A stretch of DNA of 43,493 nucleotides from a virus: the IMG/VR virus record IMGVR_UViG_3300021957_000081, positions 1 through 43,493 of that record; one strand, written 5' to 3'. The translations under genes and the position numbers were made by a program. This document shows, piece after piece, positions 7,788 to 24,154 of the stretch. Under the pieces are notes generated by a model. The model searched no databases and was not told the origin of the DNA. It saw only the letters and a list, made by a program, of their open reading frames with translations. The number at the start of each line of letters is the position of its first letter. Position 1 is the first letter of the stretch.

Positions 7788-8351
7788 ATGACTTACTTTG
7801 ATCAAATATTAGAAAAAACTGGTGGCAAGGAACGTAGTGTTCGTTGGTTTCGTGATAAGGTGCGAGAACTAGGCACACCCCCCGATAGGAAGTTGATATC
7901 TGAGGGAATAGTTACTGGTCGCCCAAATCTTGGAAACATGAATTTTTTCTTTTATGATCCAAAATATAAAAACGAATTACCGTATTACGATAGGTTTCCT
8001 TTAGTAATGCCAATTGAGAGTTACAATGATGGATTTTTAGGATTGAATTTTCACTACCTATCCATTCCAATGAGACTTAAACTATTGTCTGTAATTACAG
8101 AATATGCAACAGACGATAGGATGGATGAAAACACAAAAATTAGATTAACGTGGAATCGTATAAAAAGAAACCCAATGGTAAAACCTACGGTTAAAAGATA
8201 TCTCGCATCCCATGTAAAATCACCATTCCGTAAAATAGAAGCAGACGAAATGATGTTAGCAGTACTGTTACCTGTACAAAGATTTGTAAAGGCAACTGAT
8301 AACAAGGTTTACTCTGATTCTAGGCGAATGTCAAATCAAAGGAGAGTATAA
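7788..8351 (+). CDS. Conserved T4-like virion or head-tail protein, function unknown
   Basis: A 187-residue protein strongly patterned like a conserved marine T4-like protein: RWFRDKVRELG near the N-terminus, then NMNFFFYDPK, LPYYDRFPLVMPI and GLNFHYLSIPMR. I remember this family next to head-completion and baseplate genes but cannot name its role. In T4 the gp4 neighbour is the DNA end protector gp2, so gp2 is a possible identity from synteny only. Its TAA overlaps the ATG of the next gene (TAATG). Confidence 0.65.
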   Translation: MTYFDQILEKTGGKERSVRWFRDKVRELGTPPDRKLISEGIVTGRPNLGNMNFFFYDPKYKNELPYYDRFPLVMPIESYNDGFLGLNFHYLSIPMRLKLLSVITEYATDDRMDENTKIRLTWNRIKRNPMVKPTVKRYLASHVKSPFRKIEADEMMLAVLLPVQRFVKATDNKVYSDSRRMSNQRRV

Positions 8352-9022
8352 TGGCAGCATTAGACGAATTTATTTCCAGTTTTAGTAAATATGGTGGCCC
8401 TGCTATGCTTAGTAGGTTTGAGGTACGAATATCTGCCCCTGCTACAGCAATACCTTCTTATTCTGATGATAGGCACATGTCACTTCGTGTAGAAACAGTA
8501 ACTATGCCAGGTAAAAACCTTAGAACTGTTACCAATGAAAACATATATGGCCCAACACATGAAATGGCACAAGGTTTAACATATGCAGAAGAAGTCAATA
8601 TGACATTCTTCCTTTCAGCAGAACATTTTGAAAGGAATTATATTCAGTCTTGGATGGATTTTATTTACAAACCAAACAACTATAATCTAGAGTATTATAA
8701 AGAATATAATCGTCCAATCCAAATATTTCAATTGGATAAAAATGGAAAAAGATTAAATGGTATGAATTTGAATGAAGCATTTCCAAAAACTCTTGGCCCA
8801 ATAGAATATACACAAACGTCTACAGAACTTGCAAGACAAGAAGTTTCTTTTGCGTTTAAAGATATTACCTTTATAGATTCTAGTGGAAACAGTATTTCAA
8901 AATCTGATTCTAGAACTTTCCCACAGGATTTGAGATTGCCAGTTACACCACAAGGAGTATCTACATTACCTTCTGTTAGTGTAGATCCATATCAAGATGC
9001 TATTCTTAGAGGAATACAATAA
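8351..9022 (+). CDS. Tail-tube family protein (gp19/gp54-like)
   Basis: A 223-residue protein with the tail-tube fold pattern: FEVRISAPA, MSLRVETVTMPGKNL, then TFFLSAEHFERNYIQSWMDF and TLGPIEYTQTSTELARQEVS, ending in a FAFKDITF strand. This matches gp19-type tubes and the gp54-type tube initiator in marine T4-like phages. Position beside gp26 and baseplate genes favours a baseplate or tube-initiator role, but a main tube role cannot be excluded. Ribosome site AAAGGAGAG. Ends in a Pro/Ser-rich tail. Confidence 0.8.
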   Translation: MAALDEFISSFSKYGGPAMLSRFEVRISAPATAIPSYSDDRHMSLRVETVTMPGKNLRTVTNENIYGPTHEMAQGLTYAEEVNMTFFLSAEHFERNYIQSWMDFIYKPNNYNLEYYKEYNRPIQIFQLDKNGKRLNGMNLNEAFPKTLGPIEYTQTSTELARQEVSFAFKDITFIDSSGNSISKSDSRTFPQDLRLPVTPQGVSTLPSVSVDPYQDAILRGIQ

Positions 9023-9069: not shown

Positions 9070-9771
9070 ATGGCATTACCAAAACTGGCCTCGGCCAAGT
9101 ATGAATTGACATTACCATCAACTGGAGAAACAGTTGAATTCCGTCCTTTTCTTGTGAAAGAAGAAAAGGCATTAATGTTAGCACAACAAGAAAACAACCA
9201 AAGTTCAATGATTCGTGCAATAGAAGAGATTATCTCTGCATGTACTTTTGATAAATTAAAACCAAAAGATTTACCCATATTTGATATTGAATATGTGTTT
9301 CTAAAACTGAGAGCAAAATCAGTTGGTGAAATATCTAGACTTAGTATTAAGTGTCCAGATGATAATGAAACTTTAGTTGAAGTTGATATTGATTTATCAA
9401 AGATTGAATGTCACAAAGAAGTTGGACATAATAATAATATCAAAATTACTGATGATGTTGGATTAATTCTAAACTACCCTAACGTGGATACTATGAAGTC
9501 GTTAGATAATAATGATGAAACTGGTGCTACATTTGATGTTATCACATCATGCATTTCTCAAATATACGATGCAGATAATGTGTATGCAAAAAATGATATG
9601 GATAAAGAAGAGTTGAATGATTTTATTGAATCAATGTCTCATATTCAGTTTGAGATGATTCAAGAATTCTTCGCAACTATGCCTAAAGTGAAACATTCTG
9701 TTAAGATTAAAAACCCGAATACTGGTGTTGAGAGTGAAGTTGTATTAGAAGGTCTATCTGATTTTTTTTAA
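9070..9771 (+). CDS. 26: Baseplate hub assembly protein gp26
   Basis: A 233-residue protein of the T4 baseplate gp26 family: MALPKLASAKYELTLPSTGE, then FRPFLVKEEKALMLAQQ, and a middle IEYVFLKLRAKSVGE and CPDDNETLVEVDIDLS. In T4 it is needed for hub assembly; the family also resembles tail assembly chaperones. It ends GAT TTT TTT TAA TAG: a run of eight T just before the stop allows a -1 shift into the next reading frame, which continues for 65 codons. It precedes the tape measure gene by one small gene. Confidence 0.9.
   Translation: MALPKLASAKYELTLPSTGETVEFRPFLVKEEKALMLAQQENNQSSMIRAIEEIISACTFDKLKPKDLPIFDIEYVFLKLRAKSVGEISRLSIKCPDDNETLVEVDIDLSKIECHKEVGHNNNIKITDDVGLILNYPNVDTMKSLDNNDETGATFDVITSCISQIYDADNVYAKNDMDKEELNDFIESMSHIQFEMIQEFFATMPKVKHSVKIKNPNTGVESEVVLEGLSDFF
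9762..9768 (+). promoter_or_regulatory. Candidate -1 ribosomal frameshift site T TTT TTT
   Basis: In the gp26 frame the last codons are TTT TTT followed by TAA. The heptamer T TTT TTT fits the X XXY YYZ rule, so both tRNAs can re-pair one base back. After the shift the frame reads LIALSHNSLEN and stays open to 9965. A stop directly after the slip site slows ribosomes and favours shifting. Confidence 0.6.
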
Positions 9772-9824
9772 TAGCCCTCTCTCACAATAGTCTGGAAAAC
9801 TACTACAAGTTAAACTTCAGTCTA

Positions 9825-9965
9825 ATGCAACACCACAAGTATTCCTTGACGGAAATTGAAGAGATGATGCCATGGGAGAGGGAAGTATATACTACACTGC
9901 TCCAACAGCATTTGGAAGATGAAAGAACAAAAGAAAGACAGCGACAAGCTGATAGTAAGAGATAA
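9825..9965 (+). CDS. 51: gp51-like frame, probably read by frameshift from gp26
   Basis: The open -1 frame runs from 9768 to TAA at 9963-9965. The first ATG is at 9825 but has no Shine-Dalgarno sequence, and the residues before it (SLENYYKLNFSL) look coding. The C-terminal part, YSLTEIEEMMPWEREVY and a charged Gln/Arg-rich helix, resembles the short gp51 baseplate-catalyst proteins of marine T4-like phages and the C-terminal extensions of tail assembly chaperones. I infer a gp26-gp51 fusion of about 298 residues besides gp26 alone. Confidence 0.65.
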   Translation: MQHHKYSLTEIEEMMPWEREVYTTLLQQHLEDERTKERQRQADSKR

Positions 9966-9986: not shown

Positions 9987-10310
9987 ATGAGTGAAGAAGA
10001 ATTAAAGAAACACCATCCAGCCGATACTAACGGTGATGGTAAAGTTTCTGATGAAGAACATGCAATGTACATGGAATTCAAAAGAAAAGAACTAGAAGAT
10101 AACGATGCCATGAGGGACGCTCAGCGTTCAATGACATGGTTCGCTTTATTTGGATTATTGTTATATCCATTCGCAGTTGTTATCGCATCTTATATTGGTT
10201 TAGGTGAAGCACAAAAAACACTAGGCAGTATGGCACCAACTTATTTTGTTGCTGTTGCTGGTATAGTCGCTGCGTTCTTTGGTTCGCAAGCGTACACCAA
10301 AAAGAAATAG
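9987..10310 (+). CDS. EF-hand motif membrane protein upstream of tape measure
   Basis: A 107-residue protein with a calcium-loop-like DTNGDGKVSDEEH at residues 13-25 (D-x-N-x-D-x-x-x-x-x-x-E spacing of an EF-hand), a charged helix, and two hydrophobic segments near residues 49-70 and 84-100, ending TKKK. This type of gene appears in other marine myoviruses beside tail genes. It may be a membrane-associated tail or entry factor; no proof. Only one EF-hand is present. Ribosome site CAGGAGAGAG. Confidence 0.7.
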   Translation: MSEEELKKHHPADTNGDGKVSDEEHAMYMEFKRKELEDNDAMRDAQRSMTWFALFGLLLYPFAVVIASYIGLGEAQKTLGSMAPTYFVAVAGIVAAFFGSQAYTKKK

Positions 10311-10320
10311 GTAAAGTAAA

Positions 10321-12630
10321 ATGGCAGTCGAGAAGCAAGACGGTAGATTTAAATCTCTAATTCAAACAATTAAAGAACAGAGAGACAAAGATGCAAGACA
10401 ACGGGCAAAAGAATCGTCTGAAGTAAAGTCTGCAATTCTGGATCAGAAACAAGTTCAACAGGACTTGTTGAATCAAGGATTCACGGCAGAAGAATCTGCA
10501 TATCAAGCTCGACAACTGACCATTAAAGCATTAAAAGAATCCAAAGAAGCAATCATAAAAAATAACCCTGTAAAGGGTACAGTGGATGCGATTGGTAAAC
10601 TTACCTCACAGGTGATTGGCCAAAGAAAAGATTCTTTGTTGCAAAGTCTTCAGAGTAAACTTCCGTTTGGTGATAGTGGTGCAAAAGCAACTGAAGACAA
10701 ACGTGATAAGATGAGGATGGATCAAAAAATCCTTAGTACTCTTGGTAAAGTTTCTTCTGGTATTATGGGTCTTGGTTCAACATTAGGTGGATTTCTAAAA
10801 GATAAGGCCAAACAAATTGGTGGTGATATCTTTGGTATGTTAAAAAAGTTTGCTTTTGGCGCAGCAGTCGCTGGTGTTCTTGTATTCCTTAACAGTAAAT
10901 ATTGGGAAGATACCAAAGCGTTTGTAGTAGACAAATTGATGCCTGCACTTAAAAACTTGTGGTTAAATGTTATTTCTCCATTGGTAACAGTATTTAAAGA
11001 TGTAATTGTAAAACAGTTTGAAGCTGTTAAGGCATTATTTGATACTTTAGGAGATGCAATACAGAAGTTCAAAGATGGTGATATCCTTGGTGGTATTACT
11101 ACTCTTGTTGGTGGACTTGGTACATTCTTCAAAGATACCATAGACAATCTAATTACTGGTGTCTATAATCTATTCGCTAGTTTGTTTGGACTAGAACCTA
11201 CAGATTCAGTGTTTGGTTCTATATCCACATTCATTAGTGACACATGGAAAAGTATCAAAACATTCTTCACAAATTTATATGACGGTGTGGTTGGATTATT
11301 CACTGACCCTATAGGAACATTAACTACATTATGGACAGGACTAGTAGGTGAAGGTGGATTGATTGATATCCTCTTTGCTCCTATAGATAGTGCTATAGCA
11401 TGGGTACAAGGTATATTCGGTTGGGGTGATCCAGATGAACCATTTAAAATTTCTACATTTGTAAAGGGAATTTTTGGTAAAGTAAAAGAATGGTTCGTAG
11501 GATTATTTACATGGGGTAAAGATGCTGGCACTGATGCAGCTGGTGATTTTTCACTTTCAACATTGATATCTACTGCCTTTGGTACAATAAAAGAATGGTT
11601 TACTGGACTATTTACATGGGCAAAAGAATCTGGTGAAACTGAAGCAGGAGACTTCTCACTTACTAAACTTGCAACTGCGGCCTTTGGTAAAGTTAAAGAG
11701 TGGATTGGAAATCTATTTTCATGGGCATCTGAACCATCTGCAGCAGATGATGAAGGACAACCATTCAGTTTCTTTGGAACTTTACTGGAAGCAGTAAAAG
11801 CACCCATTAGATTTATCCAAGACCTATTTACCTTTGATTCAGAATTCTTTGAGAAGGGTCTATTAGGAAAATTAGGTATTGTATCTGCAAAACTAGTAGA
11901 CTTAATATTCTATCCTCTAAATCTTGGAATTAACTTTATAAAAGGATTATTTGGTTGGGACGAAGACAAAGATGGAAATAAAACCACATTTAGTCTAAGT
12001 GGACTTATTGCTAGTGCAATAGAAAAGATTTGGAATTGGTTTAAAGGCCTTCTATCTATTGATGTTATGTCAATTGTTAAGTCTATTCCTGGCGCATCCA
12101 CACTATTAAGTTGGTTTGCATCTGATGAACAAGACAAACAACTTGCAAGTGCTGTTGAAACAGGTTTTTATAATAAAGACATTGTTGGTGCATCTGAAAT
12201 AGATGAAAGTATGATGACAAGTGTATCACCAGAACAATTGCAAGCGGTTCTTGCAGATAATGATTTGAGAGAATCAGATAAACAACTTGTTATTGATGAA
12301 CTTGCAAGAAGAGGAATTGAACAGAGAGCATCAGGTGGCCCTGTTAAAGCCGGTGGTATGTATATCGTTGGTGAAGAAGGAAGAGAATTATTTGTTCCTA
12401 AAACAGATGGAATGATTGTTCCAAATTCATCAAATGCATCAAATAAAACAAACTCGATATCTACTGCTTCTATGCAAACACAGACAGCAAATGTTGCTCC
12501 AATCATAGTTAATGCACCAACCGCTAACGTATCTGATGGTGGTGGGGGTTCTAGGGGAATGCAACTAGTACCAATGTCAGTTGGAGAAAGTGATCCAGTG
12601 TTTAGGGCAGTAGCTGCAAACCCATTCTAG
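10321..12630 (+). CDS. 29: Tape measure / tail length protein (gp29-like)
   Basis: A 769-residue protein, longer than T4 gp29 (590). It has a basic, coiled N-terminus (KSLIQTIKEQRDKDARQRAK), hydrophobic segments around residues 160-195, many aromatic amphipathic segments of the F-x-x-L-F-x-W type, and a C-terminal tape measure motif GGPVKAGGMYIVGEEG then REL-FVP near residues 675-700. Position after gp26 fits. Three 35-residue tandem repeats occupy residues 375-479. Gene product sets tail length and enters the tube. Confidence 0.85.
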   Translation: MAVEKQDGRFKSLIQTIKEQRDKDARQRAKESSEVKSAILDQKQVQQDLLNQGFTAEESAYQARQLTIKALKESKEAIIKNNPVKGTVDAIGKLTSQVIGQRKDSLLQSLQSKLPFGDSGAKATEDKRDKMRMDQKILSTLGKVSSGIMGLGSTLGGFLKDKAKQIGGDIFGMLKKFAFGAAVAGVLVFLNSKYWEDTKAFVVDKLMPALKNLWLNVISPLVTVFKDVIVKQFEAVKALFDTLGDAIQKFKDGDILGGITTLVGGLGTFFKDTIDNLITGVYNLFASLFGLEPTDSVFGSISTFISDTWKSIKTFFTNLYDGVVGLFTDPIGTLTTLWTGLVGEGGLIDILFAPIDSAIAWVQGIFGWGDPDEPFKISTFVKGIFGKVKEWFVGLFTWGKDAGTDAAGDFSLSTLISTAFGTIKEWFTGLFTWAKESGETEAGDFSLTKLATAAFGKVKEWIGNLFSWASEPSAADDEGQPFSFFGTLLEAVKAPIRFIQDLFTFDSEFFEKGLLGKLGIVSAKLVDLIFYPLNLGINFIKGLFGWDEDKDGNKTTFSLSGLIASAIEKIWNWFKGLLSIDVMSIVKSIPGASTLLSWFASDEQDKQLASAVETGFYNKDIVGASEIDESMMTSVSPEQLQAVLADNDLRESDKQLVIDELARRGIEQRASGGPVKAGGMYIVGEEGRELFVPKTDGMIVPNSSNASNKTNSISTASMQTQTANVAPIIVNAPTANVSDGGGGSRGMQLVPMSVGESDPVFRAVAANPF
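11443..11757 (+). repeat. Three 105-base tandem repeats inside the tape measure gene
   Basis: Residues 375-409, 410-444 and 445-479 of the tape measure share the pattern F-(S/K)-(L/I)-S-T... then FGKVKEW-(F/I)-x-x-LF-(T/S)-W followed by an acidic GD. The period is 35 residues. Gain or loss of a unit would change tail length by a fixed step. Confidence 0.75.
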
Positions 12631-13037: not shown

Positions 13038-15077
13038 TTATTTTGTTGTTGCTATGAAAACACCGTTCCAATCTTTAGGTAGGTCTTGTGTCTTCATGTA
13101 TAGACATCTTTCAATCCACATCTCATAGTACTTATCTAATTGTCCACCAAACTCACCCATTAAATCTTGACACATCCGTATAGATTTGTTGAAATTTTGG
13201 GTAGTATAGTGTTCGTGCATCAAATGATGTTTCTCCTGTGACACCTTGTCACAATTTTTGTCTATAACAGTATATATACGGATACCCACAGTCTTACCTT
13301 TAACTGCAAGGTCGTCTATTTTTAGATAAAAGAAATCATCTTTAGTCTGATTGTAGGTATTCTCACCTACTAATAGGACACATCCATATTCTTTACATTT
13401 TGATTCTATTCTTGCGGCAGTACTTACTGAGTCTCCAAGCACATCATAACTGTGTCGTAAAGTAGAACCCATTTCGCCAAGATAACCAAGACCAGTATTA
13501 ATGCCAGCTCCCATACCCACTGGTGGGCGTCCCTCTTTTGTAATTTTATCATTGAATATCTCCACTGCCTTTAACATATCTAATCCACACTGCACCGCTG
13601 TTTTAGGGTGTTGTGGATCATTAATTGGTGCGTTATGGACATGCATTGATGCATCACCAATGTACTTGATAACCATACCGTCTGCATCTAATATCGGTTG
13701 AGTAATGGCATCCATATACCCATTCATTATTTTTGTCAACCCCTTAACGTCATCACCAAATGATTCGCCCAATGGAGTGAACCCTCGTAGGTCTGAGAAA
13801 CAGATTGATATCTCTTTCTTCATACCGTCTTTAATAAGTGCTGGGTTCTCTTGTAATAGTCGTACAACTGTAGGTGATGCATACCCAGCAAACTGTTTCT
13901 TGATAGCCTGTTTCTCAAAGAATTCCTTTGTGAACCTATTGAATATTGCATGGAATCCAACCAGTGTTGTTACCATAACAACCCAACTCCAATCAATCAA
14001 CCATAGATGATTAATGAAGTAATAGTATGAACCATATACTGCACCAACTGGAATTGCAATAATCATAATACCAGATAACCAGTATGGAGCTCTGTTTGCA
14101 ATAAGTACTAATAACAATCCAAGTCCAAGTGCAGACAACCATTCCAAGAATGTTGATTCTGGAAATCTAATAAGTGTCTCACCGTTTAGGATTGTCTGTA
14201 AGGATGTAGCAACTGGAACATACGAATACTGTTCACCTTTAGGTGTTGCAATAATACTACCAAGTCCCTCAGCAGTAGTCGCAATGATTACTGTCTTACC
14301 AGCAAGGGAACTGTAGTCATTAGATGTTGCGCTTAGTGTAGGGAAATCTGTATTGTATCTCAACCATATTCTACCGAATGTATCAGTTTTGATTGTAGGA
14401 TATGATGGTACACGCATTGCAGTGATACCACCTTCTTGTGTCTTAACTTGATATGATGGGTCGCCTGTTGCAACACGAATAGTTTCCATTGCAATAGATG
14501 GGAATATCTCTTCTCCGACTCTCATTAAAAGTGGTAAACGTCTTACAACTCCGTCTATCTCCGGCACAGTTGATATTACACCAACTCCATCTGCATTTAA
14601 TCCTAGTAACTCTATTGGCCCCAACATACCGTCCCACTCAAATAACCAAGGAAGTGGGTCACCTATCTTAGCGACACCTCTGGGAACTGCATTCTTATTT
14701 GTTTGAGAAGTTCCTGTTTGTGCAATGACAACACCATTACCAGCAAGTGATTGTGCTAAGTCCATATCACCACCAAGTCTATCCTGTTCTGAGAACAAAA
14801 TAGGTAAGATGATTATCCCAGCGCCTGCTTCTCTGAGTTGCCATATCATATCTGCAATGACAGTTCTCTTCCAAGGCCACTGTCCATACTTCTCAATAGA
14901 CTTTTCGTCTATTTCTAGTATCGCAATGTCTGAAGATATCTGTGGAGTATCGTATTGTTGAATTAAATCAAATGATTTTAAACGTAGAGTTTCCTTAACA
15001 AAAGGGTCACTCCACCCAATCCAAGAAATAATACTAAGTGTTATTAGGGCAGTTGCCCAATGCGTAATCCATTTCAT
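13038..15077 (-). CDS. CHASE2-domain membrane adenylate/guanylate cyclase
   Basis: A 679-residue sensor cyclase. Order: one N-terminal membrane helix (residues 5-22), a periplasmic CHASE2 domain (about 30-300: WPWKRTVIADMI, GVGVISTVPEIDGVVRRLPL), three membrane helices (about 310-376) and a class III cyclase domain (about 420-605). Metal aspartates are D429 (FSDLRGF) and D475 (KYIGDA); K471 and D545 are purine-selecting positions typical of adenylate cyclases; R556 is the transition-state arginine. The usual asparagine partner is Ser552. Makes cyclic nucleotide in the host cytoplasm in response to an envelope signal. Last large gene of the curli-like cassette. Confidence 0.92.
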   Translation of the reverse strand: MKWITHWATALITLSIISWIGWSDPFVKETLRLKSFDLIQQYDTPQISSDIAILEIDEKSIEKYGQWPWKRTVIADMIWQLREAGAGIIILPILFSEQDRLGGDMDLAQSLAGNGVVIAQTGTSQTNKNAVPRGVAKIGDPLPWLFEWDGMLGPIELLGLNADGVGVISTVPEIDGVVRRLPLLMRVGEEIFPSIAMETIRVATGDPSYQVKTQEGGITAMRVPSYPTIKTDTFGRIWLRYNTDFPTLSATSNDYSSLAGKTVIIATTAEGLGSIIATPKGEQYSYVPVATSLQTILNGETLIRFPESTFLEWLSALGLGLLLVLIANRAPYWLSGIMIIAIPVGAVYGSYYYFINHLWLIDWSWVVMVTTLVGFHAIFNRFTKEFFEKQAIKKQFAGYASPTVVRLLQENPALIKDGMKKEISICFSDLRGFTPLGESFGDDVKGLTKIMNGYMDAITQPILDADGMVIKYIGDASMHVHNAPINDPQHPKTAVQCGLDMLKAVEIFNDKITKEGRPPVGMGAGINTGLGYLGEMGSTLRHSYDVLGDSVSTAARIESKCKEYGCVLLVGENTYNQTKDDFFYLKIDDLAVKGKTVGIRIYTVIDKNCDKVSQEKHHLMHEHYTTQNFNKSIRMCQDLMGEFGGQLDKYYEMWIERCLYMKTQDLPKDWNGVFIATTK

Positions 15078-15093: not shown

Positions 15094-15810
15094 TTAGTAT
15101 TGTGTTACTGAAACGCTACACCCATTTGAATTGGCACAAAATTGTGTAACACTGTATGAATTTAATCCTGTATCTTGCCAACCACTACCTAGTTGTTGAA
15201 TATTTGCAGTGACAGGGCCACCACCATTAGTTACGTCTACATTAGCAACATTACGCATTGACCTTTGGTATACTATTACACTATTGTCATCACCAGTTAC
15301 ACTGATGTTTGCTTCGACTTCGCCATAACTATCACTTTGGTGTTTTACTGTATTATCATCACCGTCAATCTCAATATTACTTTCTTTAAGTCCACCCCAA
15401 TCCATAGTACTATATGAATGACTTCCGTTACTTGGGTTTGAAAAGATGCTTTGTGCTTTATTGCGGTCACCAACAATATCAATATTGGTTATATTTTCAT
15501 TAGTATTATTTTGTCCAGTTGCATGTGCTACGACAACCGTGTTATCGTCACCAACTGTACTACTTGTTACAGTAGAATCATCACTTGCGACACCATCTGC
15601 CCAACCGTGTGCGTTACCGTTCATATCTGTACAATTTGAATCATTGTTGATAGCACAATACTGAAAGTAGTTGCCACTACCATCTTGAACAACTTCTAAA
15701 GTAAGATCGTCACCAACTTGGTTCACATATATTTCATTTGCCATACAAGATTGTGCATAGAAAAAAGATACGAATAGGACTTTACCTAACTTGGATAATA
15801 GTGATTTCAT
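15094..15810 (-). CDS. Secreted curlin-like repeat protein (CsgA/CsgB-like), copy B
   Basis: Start chosen at ATG 15810 behind GGAGAAGGAAG. The protein has a signal peptide ending near SCMA, then EIYVNQVGDDLTLEVVQDG and further N/D/G/S-rich repeats with V-x-G-D-x-N-x-V units (VGDDNTVVV, DGDDNTVKH, TGDDNSVIV), ending SVSVTQY. These loosely follow the curlin repeat x-Q-x-G-x-x-N. It is probably an extracellular beta-solenoid or amyloid subunit exported through the CsgG encoded upstream. Six cysteines or so are unusual for curlins. It overlaps the FecR gene by 29 bases. Confidence 0.8.
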   Translation of the reverse strand: MKSLLSKLGKVLFVSFFYAQSCMANEIYVNQVGDDLTLEVVQDGSGNYFQYCAINNDSNCTDMNGNAHGWADGVASDDSTVTSSTVGDDNTVVVAHATGQNNTNENITNIDIVGDRNKAQSIFSNPSNGSHSYSTMDWGGLKESNIEIDGDDNTVKHQSDSYGEVEANISVTGDDNSVIVYQRSMRNVANVDVTNGGGPVTANIQQLGSGWQDTGLNSYSVTQFCANSNGCSVSVTQY

Positions 15811-16903
15811 TATTACTTCCTTCTCCAATAGGTATATCGTAGAGTTCTATTTCATCTTGTTTCAAATTAATTCTGTAGTCGTGGTTCTTACTCAAATTAG
15901 CATCAAACACATTATTACCACCATCTCTTCTAAATTTCCAGTTTGTATTGTAATCATATATCTCAACACCTGTATCTGGATTTTTACCTAACGCCACACC
16001 ATCTTGCATTTTAGTAAATTCATCTCTCATCTGCAACGCAAGTTGTTCATTAAGAATATCTAAAATATCTGCAAGCAAATCTGCACCAAGCCAATCTAAG
16101 TCTAATTCAGTTGACCATGTTGAATCTTTAACATCTAATAATTCGTTAGTTTGAAATGCATCAAACTGAAGAAAATCTATTCCTAAGAAATCTGCAAGTT
16201 TCTTCGCTCTTTCAGCTTCATCATCAACTTCTAATTCTATAGGTTTCTTTCGAATTAATAAATTTAAAATACTATTCTCATCCAAATCAAGTATTACTGG
16301 TTTAGAAGGTTCTGAGTATGGACTAGGCACAATTGTTGCTTGGAATGCTTGGTTCATTATAACCATACCAACTTCTGAAGCCACTGTAATTTCACCAACA
16401 ACACAAATACCAAAGTCATTACACGATGGTAGAAGGATAATTGTACTACTACCAAGTTCATCTATTGTCATAGAAAAATCAGTACCCCTAACACCAACTA
16501 CGGCGGTAGGAGTCCTGATCTTTATATTTTGTCTACTGTTTTTTGCAATTTGTCCAGATGCATATCTCATTGTACCAAAAGAGGCCTTCAGAGATAATGA
16601 ACCTGTCTGAGTATTAGGGTCATATACAAATGAATCAATGATTAACTTTGAGTGTTCTGTTACATCCACTCTAGTATCATCTATGAATTCAATAGCAGTT
16701 CTTCCATTCTTTGTACGAACAGTATCCATTGATTCCATACCGAAACCTTTGTCTATAGAGTCAAATCCATCTTCTCCACGTTCAATATTAGTAACACCCT
16801 TTTGTTCTATAACTTGTCCAATATTAGCATACGCCGAACTTGTTATTATAACAAAAAATATACTAGTCAGACTGCACGATATCAATGTCAAAACTATCAC
16901 CAT
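15782..16903 (-). CDS. FecR-domain periplasmic protein
   Basis: About 373 residues with a signal peptide (hydrophobic to residue 25, cleavage after AYA). The FecR-type core is RTPTAVVGVRGTDFSMTID around residue 130, preceded by a beta-rich stretch (TRVDVTEHSKLII, FGTMRYASGQIAK). The C-terminal half is acidic and Leu/Asp-rich. FecR-domain proteins sense or transmit envelope signals and often occur with CHASE2 cyclases in bacteria. It lies between the two curlin-like genes and overlaps both, so production is coupled. The first ATG is 16903, with 40 bases of overlap. Confidence 0.85.
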   Translation of the reverse strand: MVIVLTLISCSLTSIFFVIITSSAYANIGQVIEQKGVTNIERGEDGFDSIDKGFGMESMDTVRTKNGRTAIEFIDDTRVDVTEHSKLIIDSFVYDPNTQTGSLSLKASFGTMRYASGQIAKNSRQNIKIRTPTAVVGVRGTDFSMTIDELGSSTIILLPSCNDFGICVVGEITVASEVGMVIMNQAFQATIVPSPYSEPSKPVILDLDENSILNLLIRKKPIELEVDDEAERAKKLADFLGIDFLQFDAFQTNELLDVKDSTWSTELDLDWLGADLLADILDILNEQLALQMRDEFTKMQDGVALGKNPDTGVEIYDYNTNWKFRRDGGNNVFDANLSKNHDYRINLKQDEIELYDIPIGEGSNNEITIIQVR

Positions 16904-17585
16904 CAATGCTAAGGTCTACAGTCTGGTCTTTAATTCCACTCTGATTAATATCAATTGTACCACCACCGCCAGTTACATCTACTTCTATTCCGTGTCCGTG
17001 TACTCCATTACCTGTCTGTATTGTTGTTACTTTAACACCTTCATCACTATTAGCACTTGTAGTTGCTAATGATGCACTATTATCAATATTAACTGTAAGA
17101 GCAGCATAAGTTCCATTTATTGTAGAGTTAATAATATTATTATCTCCATCAACAACAAAATTAACTACTGAATTTGAAGCGTCAGCTGTCTCTCCAATGT
17201 CAAATGAAAAGGCGTTGGTATCGCCTTCTGTTGTAATATTGAGAGTAATATCGTCACAATTCCCAGCTGCAGAAGTACTACAATCTAAGTCTACTGTGTT
17301 ACTAGAACCAGTAAATTCCCAGAGACCAGTATAGTCTGCACCCTTAATTGTCGCAGTAATTATGTTATAATTACCTTGTTGGGTTATGTCGAAATTCATC
17401 CCATCTCCATTAATCACAGCAGCAGTAGTAGCATTGCCTACTTTGTTATCAGTACCGTCCTGTGTAATGTCTAGGTCTAGATTGTCGCCAACTTGTGTGA
17501 TATAAATTTCATTTGCTCCAAGTATGGAAGGCAACATCAATGCAGTCATCATAATAAAGATTGACCCTACTATATTTTTGGTCAT
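16863..17585 (-). CDS. Secreted curlin-like repeat protein (CsgA/CsgB-like), copy A
   Basis: A 240-residue protein with a signal peptide (MTKNIVGSIFIMMTALMLP, cleavage near LGA) and a mature start NEIYITQVGDNLDLDITQDG, almost the same as the start of copy B (NEIYVNQVGDDL). Repeated I-T-Q-x-G-x-(Y/D)-N units and V-D-G-D-x-N-x-I units follow, with Asn, Gly and Thr enriched and almost no Lys or Arg. Composition and repeats fit an exported curlin-type fibre subunit. Signal-peptide Met has TAAGGAGAAG ahead of it. Sits directly after csgG. Confidence 0.82.
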   Translation of the reverse strand: MTKNIVGSIFIMMTALMLPSILGANEIYITQVGDNLDLDITQDGTDNKVGNATTAAVINGDGMNFDITQQGNYNIITATIKGADYTGLWEFTGSSNTVDLDCSTSAAGNCDDITLNITTEGDTNAFSFDIGETADASNSVVNFVVDGDNNIINSTINGTYAALTVNIDNSASLATTSANSDEGVKVTTIQTGNGVHGHGIEVDVTGGGGTIDINQSGIKDQTVDLSIDGDSFDIDIVQSD

Positions 17586-17594
17586 TTCTTCTCC

Positions 17595-18401
17595 TTATTG
17601 TAAGCTTGCGTCTTCGTAACTCCACAAACCTTTTGTTTCGCCCTTTCTTATCATATCAATAACTGCTTGGTCGATTGCACATTTAACTGCAACAGAAGTC
17701 GGCTCATTTGCGGCCGCACCACTTTCTAATTCAAATGCTTTAGTTCCCAAATCGAAGAATCTAAATACATTCAAATCGTCCTTTACACTGGCAATTGTTT
17801 TAGTAACATTAGTGGCTAATATTACCTTACCAGAATTCACTGAAACAAGTCTCATTGAAACTGTTACTTGATCCGTTCTGTAAGAAGTATCACCGCCTAC
17901 TCCAAAGTAACGCAATCCGTTACCACCGCTGACGATATTGGCATCATAACCTACGATACCTCCTTCTAATATTAAACCAGCTAACTTTAAGGGCTTAAGT
18001 TCTGGTTTTTTTTCGCCTTTTTCATATTGTTCATATGTGGATTTTGCTAGTTGTCTTTCTTTAACTAGGTTATTAAGTCCACCTCTTTCAATCACTATAA
18101 ACCAATCGCCCTTTGAGGCACTTTGTAATGCATCTATAACCCAGGCATCTGCTCCTTGGGTTACAGCAGAAGATAGTGATGAAAATCTTTCATTAGGTTT
18201 TCGTTGTCCTGTTTTATCCTTAAACTCATAAACTGCAATAGTCATTGGAGGAGCATCAAGTTTTGGTAAATCTTCTAATTTTTCTTGAACACCACTTACA
18301 AATTCAGTTGGCGGTAGTACTTCTAATTTATCCTGTACTACTGCTTGTGTACATCCTCCCAATAAGCAAGTTGCAATAATAAATATAACAAGATGTTCCA
18401 T
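17595..18401 (-). CDS. csgG: CsgG-type curli secretion channel lipoprotein
   Basis: A 268-residue lipoprotein: signal MEHLVIFIIATCLLGGC with lipobox LGGC and Cys17. Family signatures are MTIAVYEFKDKTGQRKP, then FIVIERGGLNNLVKERQLA, LAGLILEGGIVGYDANI and RYFGVGGDTSYRTDQVTVS. CsgG forms a nonameric outer-membrane pore that exports curli subunits. The usual start at 18413 in frame is TTG; ATG 18401 directly after the csgF stop is better. In a phage the channel could export the two curlin-like proteins or simply open the outer membrane. Confidence 0.95.
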   Translation of the reverse strand: MEHLVIFIIATCLLGGCTQAVVQDKLEVLPPTEFVSGVQEKLEDLPKLDAPPMTIAVYEFKDKTGQRKPNERFSSLSSAVTQGADAWVIDALQSASKGDWFIVIERGGLNNLVKERQLAKSTYEQYEKGEKKPELKPLKLAGLILEGGIVGYDANIVSGGNGLRYFGVGGDTSYRTDQVTVSMRLVSVNSGKVILATNVTKTIASVKDDLNVFRFFDLGTKAFELESGAAANEPTSVAVKCAIDQAVIDMIRKGETKGLWSYEDASLQ

Positions 18402-18402
18402 A

Positions 18403-18855
18403 CTAAAATCCAAATCCTGTCAATGGAACTACGAGTTCGGTAAATGAACCATCTTCTTCAGTAATCTGAACTGTAATGGTGCCTGCTGTTAAATCCTTTT
18501 CCCAGTATATGGTTGCACCTTCTAAGTCAGCAGTACCAGATAGAGCACCATCATCTTCAAACATACTATCAACTAGATTCTTAGAAATTTGAGCATAAAT
18601 TCTAGATTCTACGTTTTGAATAAATTTGTTTATAGTTTTATTTGCTTCTTCTCTTGCTGCTTCTCGATCAGCTGCATCAAGATCATCTTGTAATTTTTCT
18701 TTCCTATTATGTTCAATCTGAGCGATTGATAAAAAATGTTGTGACTGTCCAATTCCACTAAATGATGGACTTCCAAAACTGTGTACTAAATCGCCTGCAT
18801 AACTAATTGTCGGTATTATTGCTAACAGACTTATTGTTGCTTTTAACGTCTTCAT
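18403..18855 (-). CDS. csgF: CsgF-type curli assembly factor
   Basis: A 150-residue protein with a signal peptide (MKTLKATISLLAIIPTISYA) and the CsgF N-terminal motif GDLVHSFGSPSFSG right after cleavage, the part which enters the CsgG pore in bacterial systems. Then follow Q-rich and coiled helical segments and a beta C-terminus (TITVQITEEDGSF). CsgF caps CsgG on the cell surface and helps nucleate fibres. It is adjacent to csgG, stop and start one base apart. Start 18855 is chosen from the signal peptide; longer in-frame starts overlap the upstream gene more. Confidence 0.9.
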   Translation of the reverse strand: MKTLKATISLLAIIPTISYAGDLVHSFGSPSFSGIGQSQHFLSIAQIEHNRKEKLQDDLDAADREAAREEANKTINKFIQNVESRIYAQISKNLVDSMFEDDGALSGTADLEGATIYWEKDLTAGTITVQITEEDGSFTELVVPLTGFGF

Positions 18856-19144
18856 GTCTAGATCCATATCTTTGTAATATTTCTTCAATATCCCCATCTA
18901 TAGGTTTACCTTCTTTATCATAATGTTCTAATAGCATAGAGAGCTTCATATTGAGTCGTATCATATCATTATCAAGCATTCTTACTCTGTCAACCAGTGC
19001 AATAAGTGTACCCATTGTTTGTCCTATGATTGGATCAATTGTCTCTGTAACCCATTTCCATATGAAGTATACAAAATATCCAAGACCCATCGCTGCTATA
19101 ATAGGGAAACCATAGTCTTTTATTGCATTGGTAAGTTCGTCCAA
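18803..19144 (-). CDS. Small membrane protein with coiled coil, paralogue 2 (holin-like topology)
   Basis: A 113-residue protein: one hydrophobic helix near residues 13-32 (FPIIAAMGLGYFVYFIWKW), followed by an amphipathic or coiled-coil segment and a polar tail. It is similar in layout and sequence to the next upstream gene (19154-19432): both have DxGxPI, a GYFV helix and a V-R/N-x-L-x-N-D segment. One N-terminal helix and a coiled coil is the layout of BhlA/UviB-type holins, but a role in the curli cassette is also possible. Overlaps csgF. Confidence 0.7.
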   Translation of the reverse strand: MDELTNAIKDYGFPIIAAMGLGYFVYFIWKWVTETIDPIIGQTMGTLIALVDRVRMLDNDMIRLNMKLSMLLEHYDKEGKPIDGDIEEILQRYGSRHEDVKSNNKSVSNNTDN

Positions 19145-23350: not shown

Positions 23351-23774
23351 GTTCACCACCTTTACCACGGCCATTGTAACCACTAAACACACTTGGTTTT
23401 CGTTTAGCTGTTTCGAATGTTGCTACTGTAACTGCAACTGCGGCAAGTAACAATGCATGTAATACCATACTAATTACTCCTGCCCACATACTACTTACTA
23501 TGATAGCAAATACAATACACCACATCCACGCAAGAACTTGCATAATCATATGTCGTGTACTGAAGTCTGGAATATTACTTAACGGATTCTTTTCGTGATC
23601 CATTACTACGTTCCAACAATTATATACCCATTCTCTCATACTTATCACCTTCCTAAAAGTTACCTTTAAAGGATAGTGTGCATCAACATCATCACGATAT
23701 TCGATTGCATCATTTACATTGTGAAACTCTTCAGAAACTTTACTATTTCTAAACCATGCTGTCACTTTATACAT
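23343..23774 (-). CDS. Membrane protein with two helices (143 aa)
   Basis: The first half is soluble (MYKVTAWFRNSKVSEEFHNV, a beta-alpha pattern seen in small phage proteins), followed by two adjacent membrane helices at about residues 78-125 (LAWMWCIVFAIIVSSMWAG, VLHALLLAAVAVTVATF) and a Gly-rich basic tail. No family recognised. It begins about 20 bases after the tmRNA, with GGAAGGATAG as ribosome site, so tmRNA and this gene may share a transcript. Confidence 0.65.
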   Translation of the reverse strand: MYKVTAWFRNSKVSEEFHNVNDAIEYRDDVDAHYPLKVTFRKVISMREWVYNCWNVVMDHEKNPLSNIPDFSTRHMIMQVLAWMWCIVFAIIVSSMWAGVISMVLHALLLAAVAVTVATFETAKRKPSVFSGYNGRGKGGEHE

Positions 23775-23843
23775 TGTCTATCCTTCCCATAATTAAGTAG
23801 TAGGTTATTCTGTTACTAGGAAACCTACCGAAACCCTATCCAA

Positions 23844-23888
23844 TCACGCTGCTAGAGCGAAACCTTGAGGTGCAAAATTATCGTTTGC
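23844..23888 (-). other. tmRNA tag reading frame
   Basis: Resume codon GCA at 23888-23886, then AAC GAT AAT TTT GCA CCT CAA GGT TTC GCT CTA GCA GCG TGA. The 14-residue tag ANDNFAPQGFALAA begins with the AND common to many tags and ends in ALAA, the ClpXP/ClpAP recognition end. It is longer than the 10-residue E. coli tag ANDENYALAA. Confidence 0.92.
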
Positions 23889-23970
23889 GTTTAGTTTTGT
23901 TAGACTATCAGGCGTCTATCCCACAGTTCTACTCTTTCCTATTCCTATCAGTCGATCCTAGTTCGCCCCC

Positions 23971-24055
23971 ATCAAAAATGCATTAACTTCGACATCCCCT
24001 TAGGGCCATCTATGTTCTGCAAAACTTCCTATTGCAGTAGGACGTAATGCACTTT
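23971..24055 (-). other. Intervening segment of the tmRNA precursor
   Basis: 85 bases between the CCA of the acceptor piece and the 5' end of the coding piece. It forms a closing stem (AAAAGTGCATTA/TAATGCATTTTT with one G-U) and inner hairpins CTGCAA/TTGCAG and CCCT/AGGGG. In two-piece tmRNAs this segment is cut out by host tRNA-processing enzymes. Confidence 0.8.
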
Positions 24056-24125
24056 TGGTGGAGGCGTTGGGTACTGCCCCCAAGTCCTGTCTAGTATTCA
24101 GATTGTATCAACAAACTGTATATTA

Positions 24126-24154
24126 TTTATACCATAGTAATGTTTGATTGTCAA
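24126..24154 (-). promoter_or_regulatory. sigma70-type promoter of the tmRNA
   Basis: TTGACA (24154-24149), 17-base spacer, TATAAA (24131-24126) on the minus strand. The predicted start (about 24119) falls exactly at the P2 strand of the acceptor piece. The -10 region also reads TATAAATA, so host and late polymerase forms could both use it. Confidence 0.82.

Follow-up and report, generated by a model that had tools for sequence, protein, structure and literature searches.

Tail assembly chaperones produced by frameshifting are a classic phage system. Chaperones of the lambda gpG/gpGT type reportedly arise by programmed −1 frameshifting, in work attributed to Xu, Hendrix and Duda (2004; Mol Cell 16:11). 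PMC3004832 (Table 2) classes T4 gp26 and gp51 among hub assembly chaperones, and gp51 is needed for assembly and is absent from the particle (PMC3004832). Chaperone genes of T4-like phages were identified by Vladimirov et al. 2022, whom a later paper credits with poly-T slippery sites in the TAC-N genes of these phages (PMC12846349). At the chaperone locus of Vandenendeviridae and Andersonviridae, a −1 extension is present in all genomes, with a poly-T site, GTTTTT, and no separate start (PMC12846349); the locus described here is like theirs, by that description, in its −1 extension, its poly-T slip and the probable lack of a separate start, and differs in the motif. A literature search combining gp26, gp51 and frameshift found no T4 paper, and Vladimirov et al. 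is known to us by its title and citations. As far as these tell, the mechanism class is already known, T4-like phages included, and what is new is this uncultured relative.

The window analysed here is a 43,493-nucleotide stretch of viral DNA (IMG/VR record IMGVR_UViG_3300021957_000081). Sequence comparison makes it very probable that a gene 26 homologue within it, and the fusion of this homologue to a gp51-like extension, are the two tail assembly chaperones, one short and one long, that a T4-like marine phage produces by programmed −1 frameshifting. As in lambda gpG/gpGT, the short and long forms would have a common N-terminus, the −1 slip lies near the end of the short open reading frame and the locus sits between tail tube and tape measure genes; the chaperone-like N-terminal fold of lambda-type proteins (HK97 gp13) is predicted here too. 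Unlike in lambda, the slip is T TTT TTN and lies directly before the stop or at most nine codons from it, the short form, at 233 aa, is larger and extends further beyond the chaperone-like part, and the tape measure gene comes after an additional 107-aa ORF.

Table 1. Features of the chaperone locus in the window and of the relatives that keep the extension without the T6 heptamer
Feature	Position	Strand	Basis
Gene 26 homologue (gp26), predicted short tail assembly chaperone, 233 aa, zero frame	9070..9771	+	PF12322 E 5e-68, phrog_150 E 6e-73
Slippery heptamer T TTT TTT, within T8 run 9762-9769	9762..9768	+	sequence; T TTT TTN in 43/48 relatives
Zero-frame stop TAA, ending the short form	9769..9771	+	sequence
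−1 frame extension, 65 codons + stop, homologous to T4 gp51 C-terminus	9768..9965	+	phrog_634 E 2e-28; extension vs T-even gp51 E 1e-10; pN/pS 0.29
First ATG in −1 frame, not thought to start a separate gene	9825..9827	+	no Shine-Dalgarno-like sequence; constrained coding upstream
GAAGG, possible weak internal Shine-Dalgarno-like stimulator, 9 nt 5' of slip	9748..9752	+	Glu-Gly codons explain most
Tail tube-like gene, upstream; annotated in relatives as tail tube or tube initiator	8351..9022	+	phrog_45 E 1e-31
107-aa ORF between chaperone and tape measure genes	9987..10310	+	similar ORF in Melnitz, HTVC008M
Tape measure-like gene	10321..12630	+	phrog_1535 E 2e-15
−1 extension without T6, Ackermannviridae	L070 2150-2200; L077 2270-2320; L086 2280-2330; L087 2225-2275		
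−1 extension without T6, Vibrio phage K357	L082 2540-2590		

The protein encoded by the first part of the locus is a member of the T4 gp26 family (229 bits against the PF12322 profile, cut-off 24.5), the extension alone matches the baseplate hub assembly catalyst gp51 (phrog_634) and residues 1-283 of the conceptual fusion match phrog_150. The locus lies between the tail tube-like and tape measure-like genes. An earlier note, made from the DNA alone, had the tape measure gene following at 10321; a gene of that kind does start there, and it is the 107-aa ORF that comes immediately next. This ORF encodes an EF-hand-like motif and apparent membrane segments, and ORFs of similar size occupy the same place in Melnitz and HTVC008M. 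The nearest isolate, Methylophilales phage Melnitz, has 77.7% DNA identity over 60% of the locus, and its gp26 and gp51 pieces are annotated as separate genes; the database records examined carry either two genes or gp26 alone.

At its 3' end, gp26 reads GAT (9760-9762), TTT (9763-9765), TTT (9766-9768) and TAA (9769-9771), in agreement with the earlier note's claim that the gene ends TTT TTT TAA inside eight T. The −1 frame is open from 9762 to 9962 and spans a heptamer of the X XXY YYZ type. A ribosome slipping on T TTT TTT would continue with TTA ATA GCC CTC through 65 codons, starting LIALSHNSLENYYKLNFSLMQHHK, to the TAA at 9963-9965, just as had been proposed, and the conceptual long form thus has 233 + 65 = 298 residues. 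Because these are the codons after the slip, the junction peptide given in that note, SDFFLIAL, is correct as a predicted translation. The tryptic peptide across the predicted junction would be NPNTGVESEVVLEGLSDFFLIALSHNSLENYYK in the window virus and NPNTDVESTVVLEGMASFFLIALSHNSLENYFK in Melnitz.

The first ATG of the −1 frame, at 9825, is the 20th codon of the extension. Were gp51 instead a separate small protein made from its own start, at this ATG or at a non-standard codon, there would be no frameshift and the T run would be incidental. Existing records annotate two genes, with gp51 often beginning at a later ATG, and the gp26 stop shares bases with an ATG (TGATG, TAATG) in phages of Rhizobium and Stenotrophomonas and in Vibrio ValKK3; T TTT TTN is retained even there. 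In the window, the −1 stretch before 9825 contains no ATG, GTG or TTG, and no Shine-Dalgarno-like sequence was found before that ATG, as the earlier note had observed. That note had also seen a coding look upstream of the ATG, and this is borne out in 19 representatives that share the window's geometry: over the extension's first 18 codons, the −1 frame has a pN/pS of 0.29 and the other frames 1.31 and 1.39, and none of the 19 has a stop in the −1 frame, whereas each of the other frames is interrupted in all 19. Such constraint upstream of the ATG argues against an independent gp51 beginning at the later ATG. T4 gp51, moreover, corresponds to the full-length fusion and not to the small piece. 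We regard an own start for gp51 as improbable.

Programmed frameshifting also predicts a fixed relation between the two frames, and the earlier note had suggested looking for the T run and the open −1 frame in related phages. Among 48 non-redundant gp26 genes (mutual amino acid identity below 85%), the gp51 part lies in the −1 frame relative to gp26 in all 48. The same relation holds in 61 of 61 viral contigs covering the junction, in Melnitz and in about 20 isolate genomes, and in many of all these sequences the run is ended by C, A or G. It is found in Kyanoviridae (HTVC008M, Mosig, P-SSM7, S-CAM22, DSL-LC03 and Ochrobactrum OC), in Schizotequatrovirus ValKK3, Emmerichvirinae CC2, Menderavirus Moby and Emdodecavirus phiM19, and in Pootjesviridae RHph_I34 and AF3, Vibrio D479 and K357 and Ackermannviridae, that is, in every examined relative outside the T-evens. 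Homopolymers are error-prone, and a misread T run, or a gp51 remnant in decay, could in principle give an apparent frame change; the recurrence of the run in dozens of independent genomes speaks against an error, the shared frame relation and the purifying selection on the extension count against both, and we give this explanation hardly any credence.

An in-frame T TTT TTN is present at the junction in 43 of the 48 relatives, with a last base of T in 19, C in 19, A in 3 and G in 2, so that relatives lacking a slip site and having a clear separate start, which would have told against a frameshift, are not what the survey found. Elsewhere in the same genes, T TTT TT occurs in frame 5 times in 10,904 other gp26 codons. 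At a mostly conserved internal Phe-Phe (residues 200-201), taken as a control, the pattern is found in 3/48 (Fisher P 1e-17, a significance inflated by kinship, since related genomes are not fully independent). GC-rich phages in which nearly all other Phe codons are TTC still use TTT at the junction: Rhizobium phage AF3 (GC3 0.71) has TTT in 1 of 13 other Phe codons, yet reads GAT TTT TTG there. These comparisons indicate that the slip site at the junction is not there by chance.

The length of the run bears on which machinery would slip. Six T are too short for efficient slippage by RNA polymerase and form a standard heptamer for simultaneous slippage by the ribosome. The window's eight T are long enough for some polymerase slippage, on general knowledge, and mRNAs with an altered number of T could encode the fusion. 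Among the 43 relatives with the site, however, the run is exactly six T in 24, followed by C, A or G (seven in 5, eight in 14), and its in-frame phase is fixed. The prevalence of exactly six T favours ribosomal over polymerase slippage, and we rejected transcriptional slippage as the fusion mechanism on these run lengths; it is very unlikely as the general route and may be an addition at the window's own T8.

In five relatives, four Ackermannviridae (SE14, RC2014, RPN242 and 3M) and Vibrio phage K357, the −1 extension is retained and the T6 heptamer is missing. Their junctions read N NTT TTC (GATTTTC, AATTTTC, GGTTTTC and ACTTTTC). A TAATG overlap is present in RC2014, RPN242 and K357 and absent in SE14 and 3M, which have no start codon at the junction. 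In the Ackermannviridae, 22 of 40 differences in the codons after the junction fall at third positions of the −1 frame. GGTTTTC is the slip site of T7 gene 10, and N NTT TTC is possibly a slip site of that type.

Stimulatory elements around the slip are weak at best. Shine-Dalgarno pairing averages −6.0 kcal/mol 5' of the slip and −1.7 kcal/mol in the rest of the gene, but resampling of synonymous codons already gives −4.8 kcal/mol, so the pairing is mostly due to a conserved glycine and the residue beside it (Glu-Gly, Gln-Gly or Arg-Gly). An internal Shine-Dalgarno sequence was rejected as a stimulator on this account and because pairing in the window is weaker than in the resampled sequences. 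RNA folding downstream of the slip has a mean z of −1.67, against −0.51 within the gene, and is strong in a few phages (ValKK3, L059 and Melnitz). Downstream structure was likewise rejected: the window's z of −0.9 is not unusual, and RNAalifold gave no consensus pair for the region.

To place gp26 among proteins of known structure, we compared an AlphaFold2 model built with 29 relatives (pLDDT 85) with solved structures, 727 chains being aligned. Residues 1-95 best match 3fgx (Rbstp2171; Z 7.8 over 85 residues) and 2ob9 (HK97 gp13; Z 7.3 over 84 residues), moderate scores both below 8, and the next PDB match has Z 4.8. Both structures are phage tail assembly chaperones (PMC9603447). A Foldseek search with the model gave no significant E, so the fold match is supportive and not proof; the nearest predicted viral structures were gp26 proteins, and PDB sequence searches with gp26 or its profile returned nothing relevant. 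A fold search with a T-even gp51 model, whose C-terminal part has a pLDDT of only 50-56, listed no chaperone. The modelled resemblance of residues 1-95 to solved tail assembly chaperones is thus supportive but moderate.

T-even phages arrange the same proteins differently. Their gp51, that of T4 included, is a single ORF; hhalign aligns it to the conceptual fusion across 242 columns with a probability of 99.7 (E 1.6e-25), and the extension alone matches it at E 1e-10. T4 gp51 is colinear with the fusion through the junction (fusion segment LSDFFLIALSHNSLENYYKLN). In T4, gp26 is homologous to the short form and gp51 to the whole fusion, encoded, unlike here, by two divergently transcribed paralogous genes; across T-evens, gp26 and gp51 are paralogues (E 2e-18) and their genes are separate and divergently transcribed. 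The T6 slip is absent from the five T-even gp26 genes examined, the T4 gene ending GAG TTC TTT GAG TTA CTA TAA, and separate genes without a slip site are what selection for frameshifting predicts. T4 gene 26 is also annotated with an internal in-frame start, 26' (L067 3803-4090). Genes 26 and 51 are reportedly the chaperone genes that Vladimirov et al. identified. Their separation in T4 fits the title of that study, which argues for a mechanism other than frameshifting (Vladimirov et al. 2022).

Straboviridae hold both kinds, with a slip in ValKK3 and CC2 and split genes in T4 and its relatives, which implies that the change arose within that family; its direction would be from slip to split. 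One strategy, slipping or paralogous genes, has replaced the other within the T4 superfamily. We lean towards the view that programmed frameshifting is ancestral for the two chaperone forms across T4-like phages. T-evens would then have swapped to gene duplication, with gene 26 losing the slip site and extension and gene 51, on the opposite strand, joining the two parts in frame; Ackermannviridae would have moved to a T7-gene-10-like N NTT TTC.

Together, the conservation of heptamer and frame, the constraint before the first ATG, the end-to-end match to T4 gp51 and the chaperone-like predicted fold support the earlier note's proposal that a −1 frameshift links gp26 to the chaperone class. What follows on frameshifting, how frequent it is and what the two forms do is our inference. 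Most ribosomes would stop at the TAA at 9769 and release the 233-aa short form, gp26. In a minority, the tRNA-Phe molecules paired with T TTT TTT in the P and A sites would slip back one base, and these ribosomes would read 65 more codons to give the 298-aa long form, with a tail that is the counterpart of the T4 gp51 C-terminus. If the two forms act like lambda gpG/gpGT, the short form would serve to coat the tape measure protein, and tail tube or hub proteins would be recruited through the extension.

Several other genes in the window were noted. Homologues of CsgG (PF03783, E 4e-47) and CsgF (PF10614, E 5e-11) are encoded at 17595-18897 (−), as published for Melnitz and pelagimyophages. Near them, 15094-15828 (−) and 16863-17585 (−) each encode a secreted protein that matches the curlin repeat weakly (PF07012, E 0.013 and 0.0008, below the cut-off); homologues of these proteins are annotated as curlin-associated in Melnitz and HTVC008M. 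These phages were described as lacking csgA and csgB (PMC9004378, the Melnitz paper); from their sequences, the genes here may form a fuller phage curli operon. Beside the curli-like genes lie a CHASE2 and adenylate/guanylate cyclase protein (13038-15077, −; E 2e-41 and 1e-15) and a FecR-domain protein (15782-16906, −; E 2e-9), a possible phage-encoded cyclic nucleotide signalling module. A tmRNA gene (23753-24150, −), with the tag ANDNFAPQGFALAA, is accompanied by tRNAs Trp, Gly, Pro and Arg; a phage tmRNA has already been published for Melnitz.

The products of genes 26 and 51 have long been catalogued as baseplate hub proteins whose function is uncertain; evidence at the level of sequence points to the tail assembly chaperone class for them. 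The 'gp51' ORFs in many cyanophage and other T4-like genomes would look truncated because each is the C-terminal portion of a product predicted to arise by frameshifting. One slip gene in some phages and two paralogous genes in others make a clean contrast within a single phage superfamily, and if frameshifting is indeed ancestral, these lineages would be natural replicates for the loss or rewiring of a programmed frameshift.
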